Positions 4,909 through 19,801 of a DNA stretch of 39,001 nucleotides are shown piece after piece. The number at the start of each line of letters is the position of its first letter. Within the stretch, counting starts at the first letter, position 1. The translations under genes were made by a program, and so were the position numbers. Source of the DNA: Pseudomonadales bacterium (lineage in GTDB: Bacteria; Pseudomonadota; Gammaproteobacteria; Pseudomonadales; Azotimanducaceae); the NCBI GenBank assembly GCA_007130155.1, contig SLTB01000055.1:1-39001 (forward strand), in the 5' to 3' direction. The notes under the pieces were generated by a model. That model worked only from the letters and a program-made list of their open reading frames with translations, searched no databases and was not told the origin of the DNA.

Positions 4909-6036
4909 TCAGGCGCGGGCTTCGATGGGTTGCCACTCGCTCTTTTCCGGGCCGATGTAGTCGGCGCTCGGGCGAATGATGCGATTATTCTCGCGCTGTT
5001 CGAAGACGTGGGCGCACCAGCCGGTGACCCGCGAGCAGACGAAGATCGGCGTGAACAGCTTGGTGGGAATGCCCATGAAGTGGTATGCGCTGGCGTGGAA
5101 GAAGTCCGCATTGCAGAACAGTTTCTTTTCCCGCCACATGACTTCTTCGACCTTGGCCGACACCGGGTAAAGCACGGTATCGCCCACGTCGTCCGCCAGC
5201 TTCTTCGACCACTGCTTGATGATGGCATTGCGTGGGTCGGACTCGCGATAGATGGCGTGGCCGAAGCCCATGATCTTCTCTTTGCGCTCGAGCATGCCGA
5301 GAATCTCGCGCTCGGCCTCCTCCGGCGACGACCACTGCTCGATCATGTCCATGGCCGCCTCGTTGGCGCCGCCGTGCAGCGGACCGCGCAGGGAGCCGAT
5401 GGCACCGGTGACGCAGGAGTGGATGTCGGACAGGGTGGAGGCGCAGACCCGGCCGGTGAAGGTGGAGGCGTTGAACTCGTGCTCGGCATAGAGGATCAGC
5501 GAGACGTTCATGACGTCGGCGTGGAGCTTGCTTGGCGCCTCGCCCCGCAGCATGTGCAGGAAGTGGCCACCTACGGAGTCGTCATCGGTTTCGGTCTCGA
5601 TGCGCACACCGTCGTGGGAAAAGCGGTACCAGTAACAGATGATGGAGGGCAGGATGGCAAGCAGGCGGTCGGCGGCGTCCTGCTGTTCGGCAAAGCTGGC
5701 CTCGGTTTCGAGGTTGCCCAGCATGGAAGTCCCTGTGCGCATCACGTCCATGGGGTGGGCGCTGGCGGGAATCTGCTCGAGTACGGTCTTCAGCGGCTGA
5801 GGTAATCCGCGCAGACTCTTGAGCTTGGCGATGTAGCCGTCGAGCTCGGCCGCATTGGGAAGCTTGCCCTTGAGCAGCAGGTAGGCGACTTCTTCGAAGC
5901 GTGCCTTCTCAGCCAGTTCGCTCATGTCGTAGCCGCGATAGGTGAGGCCGGATCCGGTCTTGCCCACGGTGCACAGGGCGGTGCTGCCGGCACTCTGGCC
6001 GCGCAGTCCCGCGCCGCCAAGCTTCTTCTCTACCAT
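4909..6036 (-). CDS. prpC: 2-methylcitrate synthase PrpC
   Basis: Condenses propionyl-CoA with oxaloacetate to 2-methylcitrate, the first step of the methylcitrate cycle, in the cytoplasm. At 375 residues it has the short-form citrate synthase length. Catalytic residues are visible: H221 in PLHGGANE, H260 in MGFGHAIYR and D311 in CNADFF, with R355 in RIIRPSADY for the carboxylate. The start ATG at 6036 follows a strong AAGGAGG. It lies between prpB and acnD in the operon. The neighbours make 2-methylcitrate synthase far more likely than housekeeping citrate synthase. Confidence 0.96.
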   Translation of the reverse strand: MVEKKLGGAGLRGQSAGSTALCTVGKTGSGLTYRGYDMSELAEKARFEEVAYLLLKGKLPNAAELDGYIAKLKSLRGLPQPLKTVLEQIPASAHPMDVMRTGTSMLGNLETEASFAEQQDAADRLLAILPSIICYWYRFSHDGVRIETETDDDSVGGHFLHMLRGEAPSKLHADVMNVSLILYAEHEFNASTFTGRVCASTLSDIHSCVTGAIGSLRGPLHGGANEAAMDMIEQWSSPEEAEREILGMLERKEKIMGFGHAIYRESDPRNAIIKQWSKKLADDVGDTVLYPVSAKVEEVMWREKKLFCNADFFHASAYHFMGIPTKLFTPIFVCSRVTGWCAHVFEQRENNRIIRPSADYIGPEKSEWQPIEARA

Positions 6037-11449: not shown

Positions 11450-12126
11450 CCGGGCCCCTGATTCAGGCCCGGGGTCTGGGCCGCGTCTATCGGCTGGGTG
11501 GTGGCGATGTGCATGCCCTGCGCAGCATCGATGTGGACATCGACGCGGGCGATTACGTGGCGGTGATGGGGGCTTCGGGTTCCGGCAAGTCCACATTCAT
11601 GAATCTGCTCGGTGCTCTGGACAGCCCCACCTCGGGCGAACTGGTGGTGGCCGGCGAGTTGCTGGCAGACCGGGACCCCGATGATTTGGCAGCTTTTCGC
11701 AATCGCATCATCGGCTTCGTGTTTCAGCAGTTCAATCTGCTGCCGCGGACCACGGCGCTGGACAACGTTGCACTGCCTTTGTTGTACCGCGGCTGGAGCG
11801 TCAAGCAGCGCCGGGAGCGGGCACTGGCCTGTCTCGAGCAGGTGGGCCTCGCTGATCGGACCGATCACCATCCGGGCCAGCTTTCAGGCGGGCAACAGCA
11901 GCGGGTGGCCATTGCCCGGGCTCTGGCCGGCAAACCGACGATTCTGCTGGCGGATGAACCCACCGGCGCCCTCGACACCCAGACCTCCGCTGACGTCATG
12001 GACATCTTCGACAGTCTCAACGCCCAGGGCATCACCATCATTCTGGTGACCCACGAGGACGACGTGGGTGCCCATGCCCGGCGTCGCATCCTGTTTCGCG
12101 ACGGGCAGATCGTGGAGGACGTTTGA
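11446..12126 (+). CDS. ABC transporter ATP-binding protein (MacB/LolD type)
   Basis: A 226-residue nucleotide-binding subunit of the exporter. Walker A is GASGSGKST (42-50), the Q-loop lies in FVFQQFNLLPR, the signature is LSGGQQQR, Walker B is ILLADEPTG, and the switch His is in LVTHE. Length and motifs put it with the MacB/LolD/FtsE group that drives substrate movement from the periplasmic side. It is a separate protein here, unlike E. coli MacB, where ATPase and membrane domain are fused. The start ATG overlaps the adaptor stop (ATGA), which implies translational coupling. Confidence 0.95.
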   Translation: MTGPLIQARGLGRVYRLGGGDVHALRSIDVDIDAGDYVAVMGASGSGKSTFMNLLGALDSPTSGELVVAGELLADRDPDDLAAFRNRIIGFVFQQFNLLPRTTALDNVALPLLYRGWSVKQRRERALACLEQVGLADRTDHHPGQLSGGQQQRVAIARALAGKPTILLADEPTGALDTQTSADVMDIFDSLNAQGITIILVTHEDDVGAHARRRILFRDGQIVEDV

Positions 12127-13376
12127 TGAGTCCCATGGCTGCCATTCTGGTGGCGCTGACGGCGTTGCGGGTCAACGCGCTGCGCAGTCTGCTGGCCATC
12201 GTCGGTGTCGTCTTCGGGGTGGCGGCGGTGATCATTACCGTGGCCCTGGCGCAAGGGGCCCGGGATGCGGTGGAGGAGCAGATCGCCAGTCTCGGCTCCA
12301 ACACGCTCAACATCCGACCCGGCTCGGACATGCGCGGGGGTCGCCGTGGCGGCGCGGGTTCAGGCCTGCCCTTCGCCACTGCGGACGTGGAGGCGCTGCG
12401 ATCGAATCTGCCGGTGGTGACGTCCGCTTCCGGAACCATTCAGTCCCAGGTGACCGCCACGGTGGATGGCGTCAACTGGCCCACTCAGATTCTGGGCGGC
12501 AACGACGAGTTTCTCGAGGTGCGGGATTGGCGCATCGAAACGGGCCGCAGTTTCACGGCAGCCGAGGACGCGCGGGGCGCGCGCCTGGCCGTGCTCGGTC
12601 GAACCGTGGCGGAAGAACTCTTTCCCGGTGGCAGTGCCATCGGCTCCACGCTGCGGCTCAATGGCCAGCCCTTCGAAGTCATCGGCATCCTGGCCGAGCG
12701 CGGGCAGGGCAGCTTCGGCCAGGATCAGGATGACATCATCCTGGCGCCGGTGACGACGGTGCGTACCCGCGTTGCTGGATTTTCCCGGGCCGGCGTCCGG
12801 GATCCGGTGCAGGTGATCTGGGTGAAGATCGCCCCCGGCGTGAACATGGCTGAGGCCGAGGAGGACATCGCCGCCCTGCTGCGTCAGCGCCGCAACCTCG
12901 CAGCGGGCGCCCGCGATGACTTCACGGTACGCAACTTCGCCGACTTCATCCGCGCCTTCAATGAGACCCAGCGGGTCCTGGGTCTGCTGCTTGCTGCTGC
13001 GGGTCTGATCACCCTGCTGGTGGGCGGCATCGGCATCATGAACGTCATGCTGGTTTCCGTCACCGAGCGCACCCGGGAGATCGGATTGCGCTTGGCGGTG
13101 GGTGCCCGTCGGCGGGACATCCGCTACCAGTTCCTCACCGAATCGGTGGTGCTGTGCGCCATCGGCAGTCTGCTGGGTCTGGCGCTGGGGGTGGCGGTGG
13201 CCTTGGCGGTGGAAGGGCTGGGCCCGGAGCTGGGTGTGGAACTCAGCGTCAGCGTGGATCCGTCCATCGCCCTGATTGCCATTTTCTCCGCGGTGGTCGT
13301 GGGGGTGCTGTTCGGTTTCTATCCCGCCCACCGTGCCAGCCGGCTGGATCCCATCGAGGCCCTGCGCCACGAGTGA
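12126..13376 (+). CDS. MacB-type ABC transporter permease
   Basis: A 416-residue inner-membrane permease. One membrane helix near the N-terminus (about 13-38) is followed by a large periplasmic MacB-type domain (about 40-275) and three C-terminal helices of the FtsX-like domain, with the conserved GGIGIMNVMLVSVTERTREIGLRLAVGA segment and a C-terminal PAHRASRLDPIEALRHE. The ATG at 12126 is preferred over a TTG one codon earlier because GGAGG lies seven bases before it; it shares one base with the ATPase stop. The outer-membrane channel is not encoded here, so a TolC-like protein elsewhere is presumed. Substrate unknown. Confidence 0.94.
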   Translation: MSPMAAILVALTALRVNALRSLLAIVGVVFGVAAVIITVALAQGARDAVEEQIASLGSNTLNIRPGSDMRGGRRGGAGSGLPFATADVEALRSNLPVVTSASGTIQSQVTATVDGVNWPTQILGGNDEFLEVRDWRIETGRSFTAAEDARGARLAVLGRTVAEELFPGGSAIGSTLRLNGQPFEVIGILAERGQGSFGQDQDDIILAPVTTVRTRVAGFSRAGVRDPVQVIWVKIAPGVNMAEAEEDIAALLRQRRNLAAGARDDFTVRNFADFIRAFNETQRVLGLLLAAAGLITLLVGGIGIMNVMLVSVTERTREIGLRLAVGARRRDIRYQFLTESVVLCAIGSLLGLALGVAVALAVEGLGPELGVELSVSVDPSIALIAIFSAVVVGVLFGFYPAHRASRLDPIEALRHE

Positions 13377-13384
13377 CGCCGCAG

Positions 13385-13732
13385 TCAGCCGTGGTCGTGA
13401 TCATGTGGTCTGGCGGCCAGGGCTTCAGCTCGCAGGGCGAGATCGCCTGCGCCGCCGAGTCCTTTCTCCGTGACGATGGCCCTGAGGGCCGTGAGCCAGC
13501 AGTCGTAGTAGGGGTAGGGGGTTCCGGGCGCAGCTTGGCGCTCCCAGGTTGCAATGGCTTCCATGAGGCGCGCCCGGAACTCGTCCCAGGAGAAACACCC
13601 GGCATCCGCGAGACTGACCGCCATGCCGAAGGCGCGGGCCTCCCAGGGCGCCCCGAACAGCAGTTCGCCGTTGGCGCTCGGTGGGGCCTCAGGCGCATCA
13701 CTGTCGATCCATGGCGGGCTGCCACCGCTCAT
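13385..13732 (-). CDS. Nitrile hydratase accessory protein (beta-subunit-like)
   Basis: A 115-residue protein resembling the N-terminal half of nitrile hydratase beta subunits ([20 protein letters not shown], then [16 protein letters not shown]), as do the small activators of cobalt-type enzymes, which help load cobalt or swap the alpha subunit. The C-terminus ends in an HDHDHG tract that may bind metal. It is the third nitrile-hydratase gene of the operon and overlaps the alpha-subunit gene by 4 bp, so it is likely co-translated. The order beta-alpha-activator is the one seen in known cobalt-type operons. Confidence 0.88.
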
Positions 13733-14346
13733 GCGGGCCGCGGCTCCGGAACCTGCTCGACGCCGATCATCGCATCCCGGGTGACCAGGGCAGCGAGATC
13801 GTCTTCACTCCAGGCCTCGGTGCCCCGCGGCCGCTTGGGCAGCACGAGGTAGCGGACTTCGGCGCTGGAATCCCAGACCCGGATCTCGGTGTCAGGGGCG
13901 AGCTGCGTGCCGAACTCCGTCAGCACCGCCCGCGGTTCCCGGACGATGCGGGAACGGTACTCGGGGCTCTTGTACCAGCGGGGCGGCAGCCCGAGCACCG
14001 CCCACGGGTAGCAGGAGCACAGGGTGCAGACCACCACGTTGTGGACGCGCTCGGTGTTCTCCACCACCACCAGCTGCTCCATCTGCCCGCCGGGGCCGCT
14101 GTCGATGCCGAGTTCAGCCACCGCGTCGCTGCCATTTTCCAGCAGGCGCTGGCGGAAATCTGCATCGCTCCAGGCCCTGGCCACCACCCGGGCACCGTTC
14201 ATGGGGCCAATGCGCTCGTTGAAGGTGGCGATCACAGCATCCACCGCAGCTGGATCGAGCAGGCCTTTTTCGATGAGCAGACTCTCAAGGGCTTCGGCCC
14301 GAATGGCAGGGTCGTCGGGGTGGTGTTGATGATCATGGTCAGACAT
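13729..14346 (-). CDS. nthA: Nitrile hydratase alpha subunit, cobalt type
   Basis: The 205-residue metal-binding subunit of nitrile hydratase, which hydrates nitriles to amides. The metal-binding claw is seen at 107-112 as CTLCSC; Thr after the first Cys marks the cobalt type, whereas iron enzymes have Ser there. The N-terminus carries a His/Asp-rich stretch ([12 protein letters not shown]). Other family features are [35 protein letters not shown] and [13 protein letters not shown]. It overlaps the beta gene by 8 bp and the accessory gene by 4 bp. Thiocyanate hydrolase gamma subunits share the claw, but the beta gene here is of the nitrile-hydratase kind. Confidence 0.95.
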
Positions 14347-15016
14347 CGGCGAGTTCCAGATAGGGTTCGAACAGGTCGAGGTGCACGCGCAGGGCCGGGT
14401 CCGCCTCGCTGCCCCATAATTCCTTGCCGGTGAACATCACCGTATAGAGATGCTTGGGTTGGTCGCCGTGACCATGGGCATGGCTGTCTGGATAGACCCA
14501 CGCGTCATGGCAGGTGAGGATCCGCCCCCATTTGCCGCGAGCATAGCGGGGCAGACGGGTGTGACCGGCTTTCACATCGGTTACCGTCCGGACCGGATCG
14601 CCGGTGGCGAATTGCGGTGGCTGGCGCAGCTGACGACGATTGTCGGCGGATGCGGCGGGTGTGACGCGATCGGGATGGGGCGACGGGCGGGCTGCGATGC
14701 GGGCATGCGGTCGGCCTCCAAGTACCTGAGCACGGGCGGTGATCTCGGTCTGCTCGACGAGGCCGGTTTCAGCCAGCAGCGTTTCGACAGCACCCAGCCA
14801 GCGCCCGTAGTAGCCATGCTCCAGATACGCAATGGGGTCGATGCGCTCAATGGCGTGGCGGAAGCGATCCGCGTTGCCGGTGGCGCCGGCACGCCCGGCT
14901 GCCATCACCATGGCGAAGACCGAGGCTTCCCAGCGCTGATGGAAGGCCGGTTCGTCCTCTTCCCGCTGGATCGGCCCGAAACCGTGCATGCCGCCGAGAT
15001 CATGGATGCCGTCCAT
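14339..15016 (-). CDS. nthB: Nitrile hydratase beta subunit
   Basis: The 225-residue partner of the alpha subunit. It opens with the family signature [16 protein letters not shown], continues with [12 protein letters not shown] and [18 protein letters not shown], and ends with the SH3-like C-terminal domain ([39 protein letters not shown]). Length is normal for the family. The start ATG lies one base after the dioxygenase stop codon, so the two genes are almost certainly translated from one message. Together with the alpha subunit it forms the active-site cleft. Confidence 0.95.
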
Positions 15017-15017
15017 G

Positions 15018-15926
15018 TCAGCTGTCGCGATCCTGCTGCGACTTCAGATAGAGATAAAGTTGCCGGTCGTGACGGCTGGTGGCGGACAGGCGACCCGGTC
15101 GAACCCAGGGTTGCCAGCGGGGCGGGGCGACACCCTCGGGCGCATCTCCCATCACCGTCACCCGCTGAATCACCCGTTCCCCCTCGAAATCGTTGAGCAC
15201 GAAGTGCTGGGTGGCGCGGTTGTCCCACATGGCGATGGTGTTTTCCCGCCAGCGATAGCGGATGGTGAAGCGTGGTTTCTGCACCCAGCCGGTCAGGTAG
15301 CGCAGCAGCATGTCGCTCTCAGTGGCGTTCATCTCGACGATGCGGCGGGTGAAGTGCTCATTGACGTACAGCGCCTTGCGCCCGGATACCGGATGTACGC
15401 GCACCACCGGGTGCACGGCCATCTGCTCCGGGCGGTTGTGAGGAGCGGCGTCATGCAGAGCCGTGAGGCCGCAGCAGAGTTCCTGCATGGGCGCGGACAG
15501 CTCATCAAAGGCCTGGCAAAGATTGCTCCACATGGTGTCGCCACCGTAAGCGGGGCACTTCACCATCTTCAGGATGGACATCAACGCCGGGTCGGAGCGG
15601 AAGGTGATGTCGGTGTGCCACTCGTCGGCCACGCCCCCCTGGCTTGCCGCCAGCTCGAACAGTTCCGGGTGCGCAGTGAATGGGTTCTTCAGGTTCGGGT
15701 GGCCCTCCAGAGGGCCGAAGCGGCGGCCCAGCGCCAAGTGTTCGTCGACGCTGATCGTCTGCTCCGGGAAGAACAGTACCATGTGCTCGACCAGCATGGC
15801 CTTGATGGTCTCGACGTCGGCATCGCTGACATCACCGAGGTCGATACCCCGAACCTCTGCTCCCAGCGCACCGGCCAGGCGATCGACCTGCGAGTCATTG
15901 TGTTCCCGTGTCACGGCGGTGGTCAT
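15018..15926 (-). CDS. TauD/TfdA-family Fe(II)/2-oxoglutarate dioxygenase
   Basis: A 302-residue non-heme iron dioxygenase. The iron ligands are visible as H104 and D106 (WHTDITF) and H241 (NRATQHFVL), and the 2-oxoglutarate-binding arginines as R251/R255 (ERVIQRV). The N-terminal GAEVRGIDLGDVSDADVETI and FGPLEGHP are typical of the TauD/TfdA group, whose members hydroxylate taurine, aryloxyacetates, carnitine precursors and some isonitrile precursors. The substrate is unknown. It is the first gene of the nitrile-hydratase operon and touches nthB, so its product probably lies in the same pathway. A weak AGGGG precedes the ATG. Confidence 0.92.
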   Translation of the reverse strand: MTTAVTREHNDSQVDRLAGALGAEVRGIDLGDVSDADVETIKAMLVEHMVLFFPEQTISVDEHLALGRRFGPLEGHPNLKNPFTAHPELFELAASQGGVADEWHTDITFRSDPALMSILKMVKCPAYGGDTMWSNLCQAFDELSAPMQELCCGLTALHDAAPHNRPEQMAVHPVVRVHPVSGRKALYVNEHFTRRIVEMNATESDMLLRYLTGWVQKPRFTIRYRWRENTIAMWDNRATQHFVLNDFEGERVIQRVTVMGDAPEGVAPPRWQPWVRPGRLSATSRHDRQLYLYLKSQQDRDS

Positions 15927-16079
15927 CGCTCATGCCCCTTTAGGCTGACGTGAGGCACTCTATGCTGGCACATCCCTTGCTGATCGGCACCCGCTCGCCG
16001 GCTGGTGAGATTTCCGGGCTAAGTCGTCGCTGGGAAAAGGTAGAAGTGCGGCTCATGGAAGCCGATGCCAGCGCCCAGC

Positions 16080-16316
16080 TCGGTGCGCGGGTGCGGCACG
16101 GGTCAACAACCGGGAGCTGATGGACTTCTGTGCTGTGGATCCGCGGATTCCGGCAGCACTTTTTATGTCCGGCTGCTGTATCCGGAGCGATCAGCGGCCG
16201 TGGCCGCCGGGGCCATCGCCATGGGAGTCAGTGCGGGAGCGGTTCTCGGGAACTTGCGCGATCTGATGGGTCCTCAGCTGGTCGGGATGCAGAATCCCGA
16301 TCCCGAAGCCCGCTGA
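16080..16316 (+). pseudogene. Remnant of an amidohydrolase (amidohydrolase_2-like) gene
   Basis: Two reading frames carry successive pieces of one protein pattern. The frame of 16096 reads ARVNNRELMDFCAVDPR. From about 16150 the frame of 16065 reads STFYVRLLYPERSAAVAAGA. Joined, they match the ARxxNRxLxDFCxxDPR ... PLxDPERAxxAAxxAIAMG stretch of TIM-barrel amidohydrolases (decarboxylase/metal-dependent hydrolase type). Both ends of the gene are missing, and no single frame is intact. It lies between the dioxygenase and the PPOX gene on the opposite strand. The family call is by eye. Confidence 0.55.
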
Positions 16317-16530
16317 ATTGCCGAGTCCGATCGCCATCGGCACAGTCGGGGCGGGGGGATGGTCGTCCCGTCCTGCTTCCTCGTTGCGTTGCGGCGATCG
16401 TTCTGATCACCGCCCCCGTCACCGGCGGATTCGGCTTGTTTGCGTTTCTGGGCACCGGGACCCTGTTGCCAGGTCTCCTGTGACGGGCTGCTGAGGTCGT
16501 CAGCAGTCCGTCCAGTTTGCTCTGGGACGC

Positions 16531-17130
16531 TCAGCGCGGAGGCAGACCGCGCTTGGCCCGTTCTGCGTTCATGCGCTCCCGGTCGCCGGAGAGGCGCTCA
16601 CCGAGTTCCTTTTCATCGACGGTGCCGGCCATGTGACGTTCGGCCAGGCCGCCGTTGTACATGATCCGCTTCACTGGGGTGACGGCCAGGATTGTCCGCA
16701 GAGGAGAGCTGAGCAGACTGTAGAACGCCTCTTCGCCTTCCTTGCTGTCGGGGCTCACTTTTTTTGCCAGCGCCCGGTAGAACCACTCCTTGGTCTCGTC
16801 GTCGTCGAGGAATTCACCGGTGCCCTTGAAGGTGATGGCGCCGGTGGGCAGACCTTCGGGTGCGCCCTTGGGATAGCCGGCGCTGCTGACGTTTACCGAG
16901 ACGCGTGAATCCCGGCGAATGGCTGCCGCACGGTGGCGGTGATTGGAGAAGGTCAGCCAGATCTTGCCATCGTGCCAGACGAAGGCGTGGGTCACCCCCA
17001 CTGGCCAGCCGTCCTTGGTTGCCCACATCAATACGCACTCGCTGGAGTGAGTCATCATCTGATCCGTTTCTTCGTCCGTAAACGGATAGATGGATACGAT
17101 CTCGTGATCCTTGGTCTGTGCCTTCGCCAT
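16531..17130 (-). CDS. Pyridoxamine 5'-phosphate oxidase-family (PPOX) flavoprotein
   Basis: A 199-residue split-barrel protein of the FMN/F420-binding PPOX superfamily. The N-terminal part VLMWATKDGWPVGVTHAFVWHDGKIWLTF, followed by HRHRAAAIRRDSRVSV, is the typical barrel with its cofactor-binding segment. The C-terminal tail (after about 150) is charged and lacks the RLHDR-type signature of true PdxH, so it is not the vitamin B6 oxidase. Function unknown; such proteins reduce or oxidise small substrates. The ATG at 17130 follows GAGGGGAC by five bases; the frame is open further upstream but without family resemblance. It follows the aminotransferase on the same strand after 76 bp. Confidence 0.85.
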   Translation of the reverse strand: MAKAQTKDHEIVSIYPFTDEETDQMMTHSSECVLMWATKDGWPVGVTHAFVWHDGKIWLTFSNHRHRAAAIRRDSRVSVNVSSAGYPKGAPEGLPTGAITFKGTGEFLDDDETKEWFYRALAKKVSPDSKEGEEAFYSLLSSPLRTILAVTPVKRIMYNGGLAERHMAGTVDEKELGERLSGDRERMNAERAKRGLPPR

Positions 17131-17206
17131 GTGTCCCCTCGCTGTTGAGAAAGTTCGTTGATGAAACTGAGTGCGCATACCAGCACAGATGCCAGCCCAA
17201 TGGAAG

Positions 17207-18349
17207 TCAGGCTTGACTGTTTTCCAGTGCGCGCGTGAATGCGGACGCAAGACGTGCCAGTGTCCCATCCACGTCGGCCAGCTTGTCGAGGCCGAACAGG
17301 CCAATGCGGAACGTCTTGAAGTCGGCCGGCTCGTCGCAGGCCAGAGGCACACCAGCGGCGATTTGCGTGCCCTCGGCGGCCAGCCTGCTGCCATTTTGCA
17401 GCGCAGGATCGTCGGTGTAGCAGACCACCACGCCGGGCGCTTCGAAGCCCGCTGCAGCGACGCTTGCGAAACCCATCTCTGCGAGCAGCATGCGCACCTT
17501 GCGTCCGAGCTCGAGCTGAGCGTCGCGGCTACGCTCGAGACCGAAGCTGCGGGTTTCCTGCATGGCGTCGCGAAAGCGGTACAGAGCATCGGTGGGCAGT
17601 GTCGCGTGGTAGGCGTGCCCGCCGGTCTCGTAGGCCTTCATGATAGAGCGCCACTTCTTCAGGTCGCAGGCGAAACTGCTGCTCTCAGTCTCGGCCAGCC
17701 GTATTTCGGCACGGCTGCTCAACATGACCAGTCCCGCGCAGGGCGATGCACTCCAACCCTTCTGCGGCGCACTGATCAGGACGTCGACGCCAATGGTCTG
17801 CATGTCTACCCAGATCGTTCCGGAAGCAATGCAGTCCAGTACGAACAGCGCGCCGACAGCGTGGGCCGCCTCAGCTATCGCGCGCAGATAGTCATTCGGC
17901 AGCATGATGCCGGCCGAGGTTTCCACGTGGGGTGCGAACACCACCTCGGGGCGGAAGCTGTGGATGCGGGCCACCACATCCTCGATGGCTGGTGGTGCGA
18001 AGGGCTGCTGCGATCCCGCGGCCACCGGTGCCGCCTTGTGCACTTCGACCTCGCTGGCGATGCGCCCGGTTTCCAGGATCTGGCTCCAGCGGTAGCTGAA
18101 CCAGCCATTGCGGATGACCAGAGCCCGGCGGTCAGTGGTGAATTGCCGTGCCACCGCCTCCATGGCGAAGGTGCCTCCGCCGGGAATCACGGCGACGCCA
18201 TCGGCGTGATACACCTCCCGCAGACCCGTTGAAATGTCTCGCATCACCTGCTGAAAGTTCTGCGCCATGTGATTCAGAGAGCGGTCTGTGAAGACCACCG
18301 AGAATTCTTCGAGGCCGCCGGGGTCGACGGCAGAAAGTGGCGTGCTCAT
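17207..18349 (-). CDS. Class V aminotransferase
   Basis: A 380-residue PLP enzyme of fold type I, class V (serine-pyruvate/alanine-glyoxylate group). K197 in SAPQKGWSASP is the PLP lysine, D172 in LFVLDCIAS should bind the pyridine nitrogen, and IPGGGTFAMEA (55-65) is the phosphate-cup region. APHVETSAGIMLP (139-151) matches the substrate-loop motif of the group. The amino donor and acceptor are not predictable. GAGGA six bases before the ATG supports the start at 18349. It heads a likely two-gene unit with the PPOX protein, upstream of and codirectional with the dioxygenase-nitrile hydratase operon. Confidence 0.9.
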   Translation of the reverse strand: MSTPLSAVDPGGLEEFSVVFTDRSLNHMAQNFQQVMRDISTGLREVYHADGVAVIPGGGTFAMEAVARQFTTDRRALVIRNGWFSYRWSQILETGRIASEVEVHKAAPVAAGSQQPFAPPAIEDVVARIHSFRPEVVFAPHVETSAGIMLPNDYLRAIAEAAHAVGALFVLDCIASGTIWVDMQTIGVDVLISAPQKGWSASPCAGLVMLSSRAEIRLAETESSSFACDLKKWRSIMKAYETGGHAYHATLPTDALYRFRDAMQETRSFGLERSRDAQLELGRKVRMLLAEMGFASVAAAGFEAPGVVVCYTDDPALQNGSRLAAEGTQIAAGVPLACDEPADFKTFRIGLFGLDKLADVDGTLARLASAFTRALENSQA

Positions 18350-18384
18350 GACGGGTCCTCGGTGACAGTTTCCAGGCGGCGGGG

Positions 18385-18393
18385 ACTATAGCA
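18385..18393 (-). promoter_or_regulatory. Extended -10 promoter before the aminotransferase
   Basis: The minus strand reads TGC-TATAGT, an extended -10 element, about 36 bp before the aminotransferase start codon. No convincing -35 box is present at 17 bp, which is tolerated by extended -10 promoters. Confidence 0.45.
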
Positions 18394-18539
18394 GCCGTCA
18401 ATGCGGCCGTCCCGCAACCGAGGGATGTGCCAGCTTCGAGTGATGAGCCTTGGTGTGATTCGCTTCGTTGCGGTGCTTCTGGCGGGTCGCGTAGGCTTCG
18501 GCGGTGCCGGGAGTGGCGAGAAATGGGGGTGGCGGCCGG

Positions 18540-18778
18540 CCCATGTGGACGTCACGTCGAATCGAACTCACGTCGGTCATGGGTCTCGGTATCGGCACCC
18601 TGGCCGCCCATGTCCATTCGCTTCCGACTGGGTGCTTCTGGCCGCACCGGAAAACAGCTGGATCCGCAGTAGCCCGCTGATGGATGCGGTGTCCTCCGAA
18701 CTCACAGGGGCTCCGGAACTGTGGACGGACCGCTACAGCAGTCTGTTCCGCATCATGCGTACAGCGCCGCGGATCTGA
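18540..18778 (+). pseudogene. Remnant of a spermidine-synthase-like gene
   Basis: The plus strand carries disconnected pieces of a spermidine synthase-like protein. TSNRTHV is followed in another frame (from 18576) by VMGLGIGTLAAHVH, the usual SAM-binding glycine loop. After an apparent internal deletion near 18616 comes FASDWVLLAAPENSW, and the end reads GAPELWTDRYSSLFRIMR, like the C-terminus of fused MFS/spermidine-synthase proteins. The pieces are in two frames with most of the catalytic domain absent, so the gene is dead. It lies between the aminotransferase and meaB in a 489-bp gap. The assignment is by eye. Confidence 0.45.
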
Positions 18779-18838
18779 GGGCGCGGCGAGCGTGCGGGTT
18801 CGGAAGTGCAAGTCGGCTTGGCCGCGGGTGGTGCCCGC

Positions 18839-19801
18839 TCAAAGTAGTTCGACGATCTCCACGGCGGCCGCGTAAGGGGTGAGTTCACCGCTCTTGACCC
18901 TGGATTCAAGTTCGCAACGGCGTTGATTGAGGCGTTCGTTGCGAGTCAGTCGCGCCTCCACCAGGGCCAGTATCAGGTGCTGCATCCATTCCAGGTTCTG
19001 GCGGGCCCGGCGATCGGCGAAGGCGCCGCTGGCGTCGGCCTGGGTGCGAAACTCGCAGATGAGCTGCCAGATGGCGTTGATGCGGGTGTGCTCGATGGCT
19101 GAGCAGGTGAGCACTCTGGGTGTCCAGCCGCTGCGGCGACCGAGCAGGTCCAGGGCACTCTGGTAGTGGCCCCGAGTGCGCTCGGCCTGGGCCGTCAGCT
19201 CACCGTCAGCCTTGTTGATCACCACCGCATCGGCGAGTTCGAGGATGCCCTTCTTGATGCCCTGCAGTTCATCGCCGGCGTTGGGCAGCATCAGCACCAG
19301 GAAGAAGTCCACCATGCCCGCCACCTGGTACTCGCTCTGCCCGACGCCGACGGTCTCCACCAGGATGACGTCGTAGCCGGCTGCCTCGCACAGCAGTTTA
19401 GTCTCGCGTGTTTTCTGTGCGACGCCGCCGAGGGCGCCGGCCGAGGGTGAGGGTCGGATGAAGGCATTGGCTTCCCGGGACAGCTCTTCCATGCGGGTCT
19501 TGTCGCCCAGGATCGAGCCCCCGCTCACGGGTGAGCTTGGGTCCACGGCCAGCACGGCGACCTTGTGGCCCTGCTCGATCAGATGGCGGCCAAAGGCCTC
19601 GATGAAGGTCGACTTGCCCACGCCGGGGCTGCCGCTGATGCCGATGCGAATACTGCGTCCGGTATGGGGCAGCGCTTCCTGCAACAGGGTCTGGGCGGCC
19701 TCACGATCGGCTTCGCGGGTGCTCTCCACCAGCGTGATGGCCTTGGCCAGCGCGCGGCGCTGGCCGCCGAGTATGTCGTCGATGGAAGGTGGCTGCGTCA
19801 A
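18839..19801 (-). CDS. meaB: Methylmalonyl-CoA mutase-associated GTPase MeaB
   Basis: A 320-residue G3E-type GTPase that guards and reloads the adenosylcobalamin cofactor of methylmalonyl-CoA mutase. The P-loop GSPGVGKST is at 57-65, followed by [21 protein letters not shown], the ETVGVGQSE switch region and the NKAD base-specificity motif. The C-terminal helical dimerisation arm is complete. The start appears to be TTG at 19801, two bases after the mutase stop codon; no ATG fits the N-terminus. Position immediately after the mutase is the usual one for meaB. Confidence 0.96.

Follow-up and report, generated by a model that had tools for sequence, protein, structure and literature searches.

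What is a TauD-family dioxygenase doing at the head of a nitrile hydratase operon? The gene set that raises this question lies at 13385-15926 on the minus strand of the window, by which we mean the whole 39,001-nucleotide stretch that was analysed (SLTB01000055.1, positions 1-39,001). Its parts, and a nearby scar to which we return below, are as follows:

15018-15926, minus strand: TauD-family Fe(II)/2-oxoglutarate (2OG) dioxygenase, first gene, 302 aa (PF02668 match and alignment to solved TauDs)
15014-15020, minus strand: junction TGACATG between the TauD stop and the nthB start, with a 1-base gap, identical in 5/5 genomes
14339-15016, minus strand: nthB, nitrile hydratase beta subunit, 225 aa (TIGR03888 match)
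13729-14346, minus strand: nthA, nitrile hydratase alpha subunit, 205 aa (TIGR01323 match)
14011-14028, minus strand: CTLCSC metal-binding motif of nthA, residues 107-112 (alignments to 4ob1 and 3qxe)
13385-13732, minus strand: nitrile hydratase accessory (activator-like) protein, 115 aa (TIGR03889 match)
16032-16292, plus strand: deletion scar of three short amidohydrolase fragments, from a gene whose copies in the sisters are longer (blastn against the sister genomes G077 and G059; protein fragments)

A preliminary description of the locus had reported four genes with a 1-bp gap or 4-8-bp overlaps, dioxygenase first, and this layout is borne out: TauD and nthB are 1 base apart, nthB and nthA overlap by 8 bases, and nthA and the accessory gene overlap by 4. 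The same holds for the gene families and metal ligands it named, with PF02668 and three equivalog models matched and both H104/D106/H241 of TauD and the CTLCSC motif in place. TauD and the nitrile hydratase are encoded by adjacent genes, with no protein fusion, and the set is presumably co-transcribed. No promoter or terminator was found in a scan of 13000-16600, nor any RNA family in a scan of 12000-19000.

The nitrile hydratase half of the operon is conventional. NthA scores 290.7 bits on the alpha equivalog TIGR01323 (cut-off 249.85), nthB 244.7 bits on the beta equivalog TIGR03888 (cut-off 152.2), and the accessory protein beside them 76.4 bits on TIGR03889 (cut-off 46). The best solved relatives of nthA are Co-type alpha chains, those of nthB are Co-type beta chains, and the Thr in the CTLCSC motif is a mark of the Co-type enzymes. 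With three equivalog scores above cut-off and this motif, nthB-nthA-accessory is a predicted cobalt-type nitrile hydratase, and the three models, the motif and the nearest structures are all shared with known Co-type operons of beta, alpha and accessory genes. Unlike those, the window operon opens with a TauD gene and contains no amidase or aldoxime dehydratase. The earlier claim that amidase is missing stands for the operon, which has no PF01425 match, and fails for the genome, which has 7 elsewhere. In clusters of the aldoxime-nitrile pathway, aldoxime dehydratase is encoded together with nitrile hydratase, according to passages of PMC8955678. None was seen among the 10 window proteins scanned; PF13816, the aldoxime dehydratase family, had 0 matches in six genomes of the genus in a search whose control was equally silent, so that absence is not shown by it. 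To our knowledge, the physiological substrates of nitrile hydratases are mostly unknown. As a side observation, nthA (13729-14346) scores as well against models of NHLP leader peptides and TOMM precursors; such precursor peptides resemble nitrile hydratase alpha chains.

The arrangement is conserved within the genus, a group of uncultured bacteria. A genome search for the neighborhood, which the preliminary description had proposed as a check, covered the six available genomes of the genus: the window's own, the four sisters G077, G059, G093 and G110, and G035. (Locus records L032-L035 come from the same genomes as sisters G077, G093, G059 and G110 and add no extra evidence.) The neighborhood is not unique to one strain. 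A TauD orthologue stands directly before nthB in five of the six genomes, the window's included, and the other four orthologues are 84-91% identical to the window TauD. The 1-base TauD/nthB gap and the 8-base nthB/nthA overlap are found in 5/5 genomes, and the 4-base nthA/accessory overlap in 4/5, the accessory start of the fifth not being fixed. Because the arrangement recurs in five of six genomes with the same TauD/nthB gap, it reflects more than chance, and the gene set in the window is confirmed as real. The operon TauDs form one clade with support of 100/99 in a tree of 49 TauDs. Pairwise dN/dS is 0.07-0.14 for TauD, 0.09-0.22 for nthB and 0.08-0.23 for nthA; for the accessory gene, compared in four sequences, it is 0.10-0.36. 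The compared sequences have no internal stops. TauD and nthB are under purifying selection here, and the 1-base gap between them has been kept over synonymous divergence of up to ~1.

The history of the operon may include recombination. When 12123-14922 of the window is compared with sister G077, nucleotide identity is 95-98% up to ~14122, a stretch that spans a MacB permease, the accessory gene and most of nthA, and 75-88% from there to ~14922. This step looks like the edge of a recombination tract that ends inside the operon.

Outside the genus, the two halves of the operon are common and apart. We surveyed 150 genomes of the family, calling TauD orthologues at E <= 1e-75 and nthB at E <= 1e-5, or at E <= 1e-30 for a strong match, with genome lists compiled by hand from the search outputs. 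TauD is present in 88/150 genomes, as a single match in 86 of the 88, and nthB in 89/150 at the looser and 79/150 at the stricter cut-off. With strong matches, 62 genomes have both genes, 26 have TauD alone, 17 nitrile hydratase alone and 45 neither. TauD was found (at E <= 1e-4) in 0/56 fetched nitrile hydratase loci outside the genus, with flanks of at most ~5 kb, some shortened by small contigs, and nitrile hydratase in 0/76 named TauD loci outside the genus, with flanks of at most 6 kb. At the level of the class, 11/369 genomes, the window's among them, carry a nitrile hydratase, and none of 12 loci fetched from the remaining 10 shows a TauD in flanks of up to 1.5 kb. Outside the genus, 57 of the family genomes carry both genes; in two of them the main TauD and nitrile hydratase places share a contig, over 140 kb (G049) and about 24 kb (G146) apart; a third genome, G134, has a second TauD match on its nitrile hydratase contig, ~268 kb away. 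The parts of the operon are ordinary, and among the fetched loci their linkage is limited to this one genus.

Other neighbors recur at these unlinked loci, as called with an ORF caller that places some frames on the wrong strand in GC-rich DNA. Nitrile hydratase in other genera lies near a LysR regulator at 16/60 loci, a GH78 rhamnosidase-like gene at 16 and an alpha/beta hydrolase at 11 (e.g. L125, L135, L139, L142, L149 and L176), each family having been assigned from one representative; a literature search found no pertinent report on this neighborhood. Unlinked TauD (L058-L092) lies beside a family III CoA-transferase at 30/80 loci and an aldo/keto reductase at 27/80, and also, of the same 80 loci, beside genes with the Pfam domains NAD_synthase (23) and AIRC (22), which we take to be LarE and LarB. 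One TauD, 75% identical to the window's, comes from a metagenome-assembled genome labelled Klebsiella pneumoniae (L039); the tree places it among gammaproteobacterial metagenome records, and the label is probably wrong.

What the dioxygenase does is best approached through its relatives. It scores 184 bits on PF02668 (cut-off 27), which places it in the TauD/TfdA family of 2OG oxygenases, and its iron ligands H104, D106 and H241 are kept in all 49 sequences compared (5 from the operon, 44 unlinked). Its closest solved structure is PlaO1 (PDB 7qtd; Z 34.0, rmsd 2.2, 268 aligned residues, 42% identity), which is also first by sequence score at 245 bits, followed by E. coli TauD (1gy9; Z 33.5, 36-38% identity), with AAD-1 and AtsK after these at Z ~32 and P. 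putida TauD (3pvj) at Z 31.7. PlaO1 belongs to phenalinolactone biosynthesis, and no cluster of that type was seen here. With the nearest solved chains ~42% identical, the window TauD does not group tightly with a characterized taurine or aryloxyacetate enzyme; tight grouping of that kind is what the preliminary description had said would undo its reading. The taurine dioxygenases of E. coli and P. putida share its fold, the His-x-Asp...His ligands and the equivalents of Arg266, Arg270, His70 and Phe206; the window protein, however, scores 226.8 bits on the taurine dioxygenase equivalog NF007104, short of the cut-off of 313, and lacks Tyr73 and Asn95.

The pocket residues suggest what kind of substrate it takes. 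In E. coli TauD, His70 and Arg270 contact taurine, and Asp94, Asn95 and Ser158 form a network at the amine end, as described in passages of PMC9304159. By alignment, R251 and R255 of the window TauD are the equivalents of Arg266 and Arg270, with R251 present in 49/49 TauDs; H76 corresponds to His70, and the Phe206 equivalent is likewise kept. Tyr73 is replaced by L79 and Asn95 by A100, the latter in 49/49, and Ser158 by H163, this last by a hand count only, in a region between two aligned stretches of the printed alignment. Since H76 and R255 are kept and the positions of Asn95 and (by that hand count) Ser158 are changed, the substrate is probably an anion-bearing compound other than taurine. 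We compared the five operon TauDs with the 44 orthologues that have no nitrile hydratase in their fetched flanks. Of 22 inspected ligand and pocket columns, 20 are identical in 49/49 sequences, and the other two, 161 and 164, vary among the unlinked proteins too. Ten internal columns hold a residue common to the five operon TauDs and rare elsewhere, none of them a ligand or an inspected pocket position; the one nearest to a ligand is A238, three residues before H241, where 41/44 unlinked TauDs have C. Because the inspected positions are the same in both sets, the enzyme likely performs the same reaction inside and outside of the operon. The AlphaFold model has a mean pLDDT of 86, with 58-68 at residues 91-110, too low for a reading of pocket geometry.

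The reading that we tentatively favor, while giving it a little less than an even chance, is that an anion-anchored hydroxylase was captured by the operon once, in this genus only, and works in parallel to the nitrile hydratase. One rearrangement would have joined two units that are otherwise apart in the family, a mostly single-copy TauD hydroxylase and a Co-type nitrile hydratase. The nitrile hydratase, matured with its accessory protein, would hydrate a nitrile to an amide, which could then be cleaved by unlinked amidases. The dioxygenase would keep the reaction of its unlinked orthologues, in which 2OG and O2 give an Fe(IV)=O species that hydroxylates the substrate, here an organic anion that H76 and R255 hold in place and that is perhaps a sulfonate, sulfate ester or carboxylate. 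TauD and nitrile hydratase would then be co-made for two catabolic steps that run in parallel, and the nitrile would not come from TauD.

A possible but less likely alternative is a two-step pathway on one molecule, in which TauD acts as a hydroxylase on an anion-bearing nitrile, or on the amide derived from it, and so releases or unmasks the target group of the nitrile hydratase. The tight spacing kept under purifying selection in 5/5 genomes argues for it, and a 1-base gap retained at such divergence is as much expected of a joint pathway as of parallel steps, a point against our preferred reading. The inspected pocket residues, shared with the 44 unlinked orthologues, argue the other way, as do the TauD-bearing genomes without a nitrile hydratase (26/88 at E <= 1e-30, 21/88 at 1e-5). 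G035, the sole genome of the genus in which no TauD orthologue was detected, also shows no nitrile hydratase; its contig, however, breaks off within a GntP-like gene that precedes the cluster in two sisters, so this absence could be an assembly gap and is weak evidence.

Co-occurrence across genomes bears on the same choice. A raw Fisher test of TauD against strong nitrile hydratase matches over the 150 genomes gives p = 1.7e-7, and an unrelated gene, the aminotransferase found near TauD in the window, also co-occurs with nitrile hydratase (0.0016) and with TauD (0.0039). When labels are shuffled inside genera, strong matches give 62 genomes with both genes against 59.2 expected (p = 0.085; 0.18 without this genus), which counts against one shared molecule. 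Adding ten genomes with weak matches, all in genera g7 and g37, to reach 89 gives 67 against 61.6 expected (p = 0.0036; 0.0095 without this genus), which favors one shared molecule and counts against parallel steps. Adjustment for genome size and completeness yields 0.13 for strong matches (0.25 without the genus) and 0.0066 for all 89 (0.019 without it). In the same adjusted test, the control pair of DAHP synthase and aminotransferase, for which no link is expected, reaches 0.0012, a further point against the joint pathway, and aminotransferase with nitrile hydratase 0.70. The co-occurrence signal, dependent as it is on the cut-off and on unclean controls, is at most suggestive. Within g7, TauD orthologues occur in 3/9 genomes, and the same three have a weak nthB-like match (35-38% identical) on other contigs or far away; G006, G062 and G096 are examples of such genomes from g7 and g37. 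If these weak matches do represent a divergent nitrile hydratase that goes together with TauD, the case for functional coupling would be stronger.

The surroundings of the operon raise a further alternative. In 4/4 sisters, a DAHP synthase gene (PF00793) lies directly 5' of TauD, with an opposite-strand amidohydrolase (PF04909) further out; a GntP-like permease and a DUF4397 gene lie between these two in G093 and G110. Beyond the amidohydrolase, G059 and G077 have both a PPOX and an aminotransferase gene, and G093 has the aminotransferase but no PPOX; the aminotransferase of G110 is found on a different contig from the cluster. Blastn of the window against G077 and G059 finds no DAHP synthase left at the deletion site, and against G077 it places the last part of an MgtE-type transporter, from 16413, joined to the PPOX side. 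As judged from these alignments, the window species is without the DAHP synthase and most of the amidohydrolase of its sisters by deletion, and it is this deletion that puts the aminotransferase and PPOX close to TauD in the window. The preliminary description had suggested that these two genes may serve the same pathway. We reject this on synteny: the sisters have the DAHP synthase and opposite-strand amidohydrolase in between, the closeness is the product of the deletion, and both genes are still present in G035, where neither a TauD orthologue nor a nitrile hydratase was found.

The DAHP synthase itself could be part of a specialized three-gene pathway with TauD and nitrile hydratase, leading to a shikimate-derived product and already decayed in the window species, an explanation that we consider improbable. 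Its position directly 5' of TauD would be odd for a purely catabolic unit, which again counts against parallel steps, and DAHP synthase matches number 3 in each sister, compared with 2 in the window genome and 2 in G035. Within genera, the TauD-adjacent isozyme also co-occurs with strong nitrile hydratase matches (p = 0.027; 0.065 without this genus). However, it does so at p = 0.18 with all 89 nitrile hydratase genomes, and it shows no association with TauD (Fisher p = 0.42; within genus 0.61). Outside this genus the isozyme is found in 30 genomes, where the search tables, read by eye, place it on a contig apart from TauD and nitrile hydratase, and the window species keeps TauD and nitrile hydratase intact without it. 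A fuller version, to which we give a similarly small chance, is that this genus assembled formerly scattered DAHP synthase, TauD and nitrile hydratase genes, that the anion-anchored 2OG oxygenase and the cobalt nitrile hydratase work one after the other on a single molecule, as a nitrile route lacking both amidase and aldoxime dehydratase, and that the window species has since lost the DAHP synthase.

The central proposal of the preliminary description, that TauD belongs with the nitrile- or isonitrile-forming oxygenases of the ScoE/PvcB type and feeds the nitrile hydratase, fares poorly. ScoE-type structures share the superfamily and the broad fold (Z ~26), but their identity to the window TauD is 24%, against 42% for PlaO1 and 36-38% for E. 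coli TauD. ScoE comes last among the solved relatives compared, at 60 bits to PlaO1's 245, and the window protein scores 71.3 bits on the ScoE equivalog, far below its cut-off of 400. ScoE lacks the Arg266 equivalent of TauD and has that of Arg270, according to passages of PMC7949033, whereas the window TauD has both; its inspected pocket residues, moreover, are those of the 44 unlinked orthologues. On score, identity and the Arg266 equivalent, with ScoE rather than PvcB as the comparison, we reject this candidate as very unlikely. Finally, an assembly artefact or chance neighborhood, which might be entertained given that the named sister records are metagenome assemblies, is hardly credible with the same junction in five genome assemblies.

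No TauD-nitrile hydratase operon appeared in titles or abstracts among the literature matches listed, and PMC11857848 names both a TauD and a nitrile hydratase that are far apart (genes 4391 and 5439-5441). The locus is a clear case of operon birth: one genus has, as a tightly spaced unit, genes that are separate in the rest of the genera sampled from the family. If TauD and nitrile hydratase do share a substrate, this would provide a natural role for a nitrile hydratase, and a function for a widespread and uncharacterized group of TauD orthologues.
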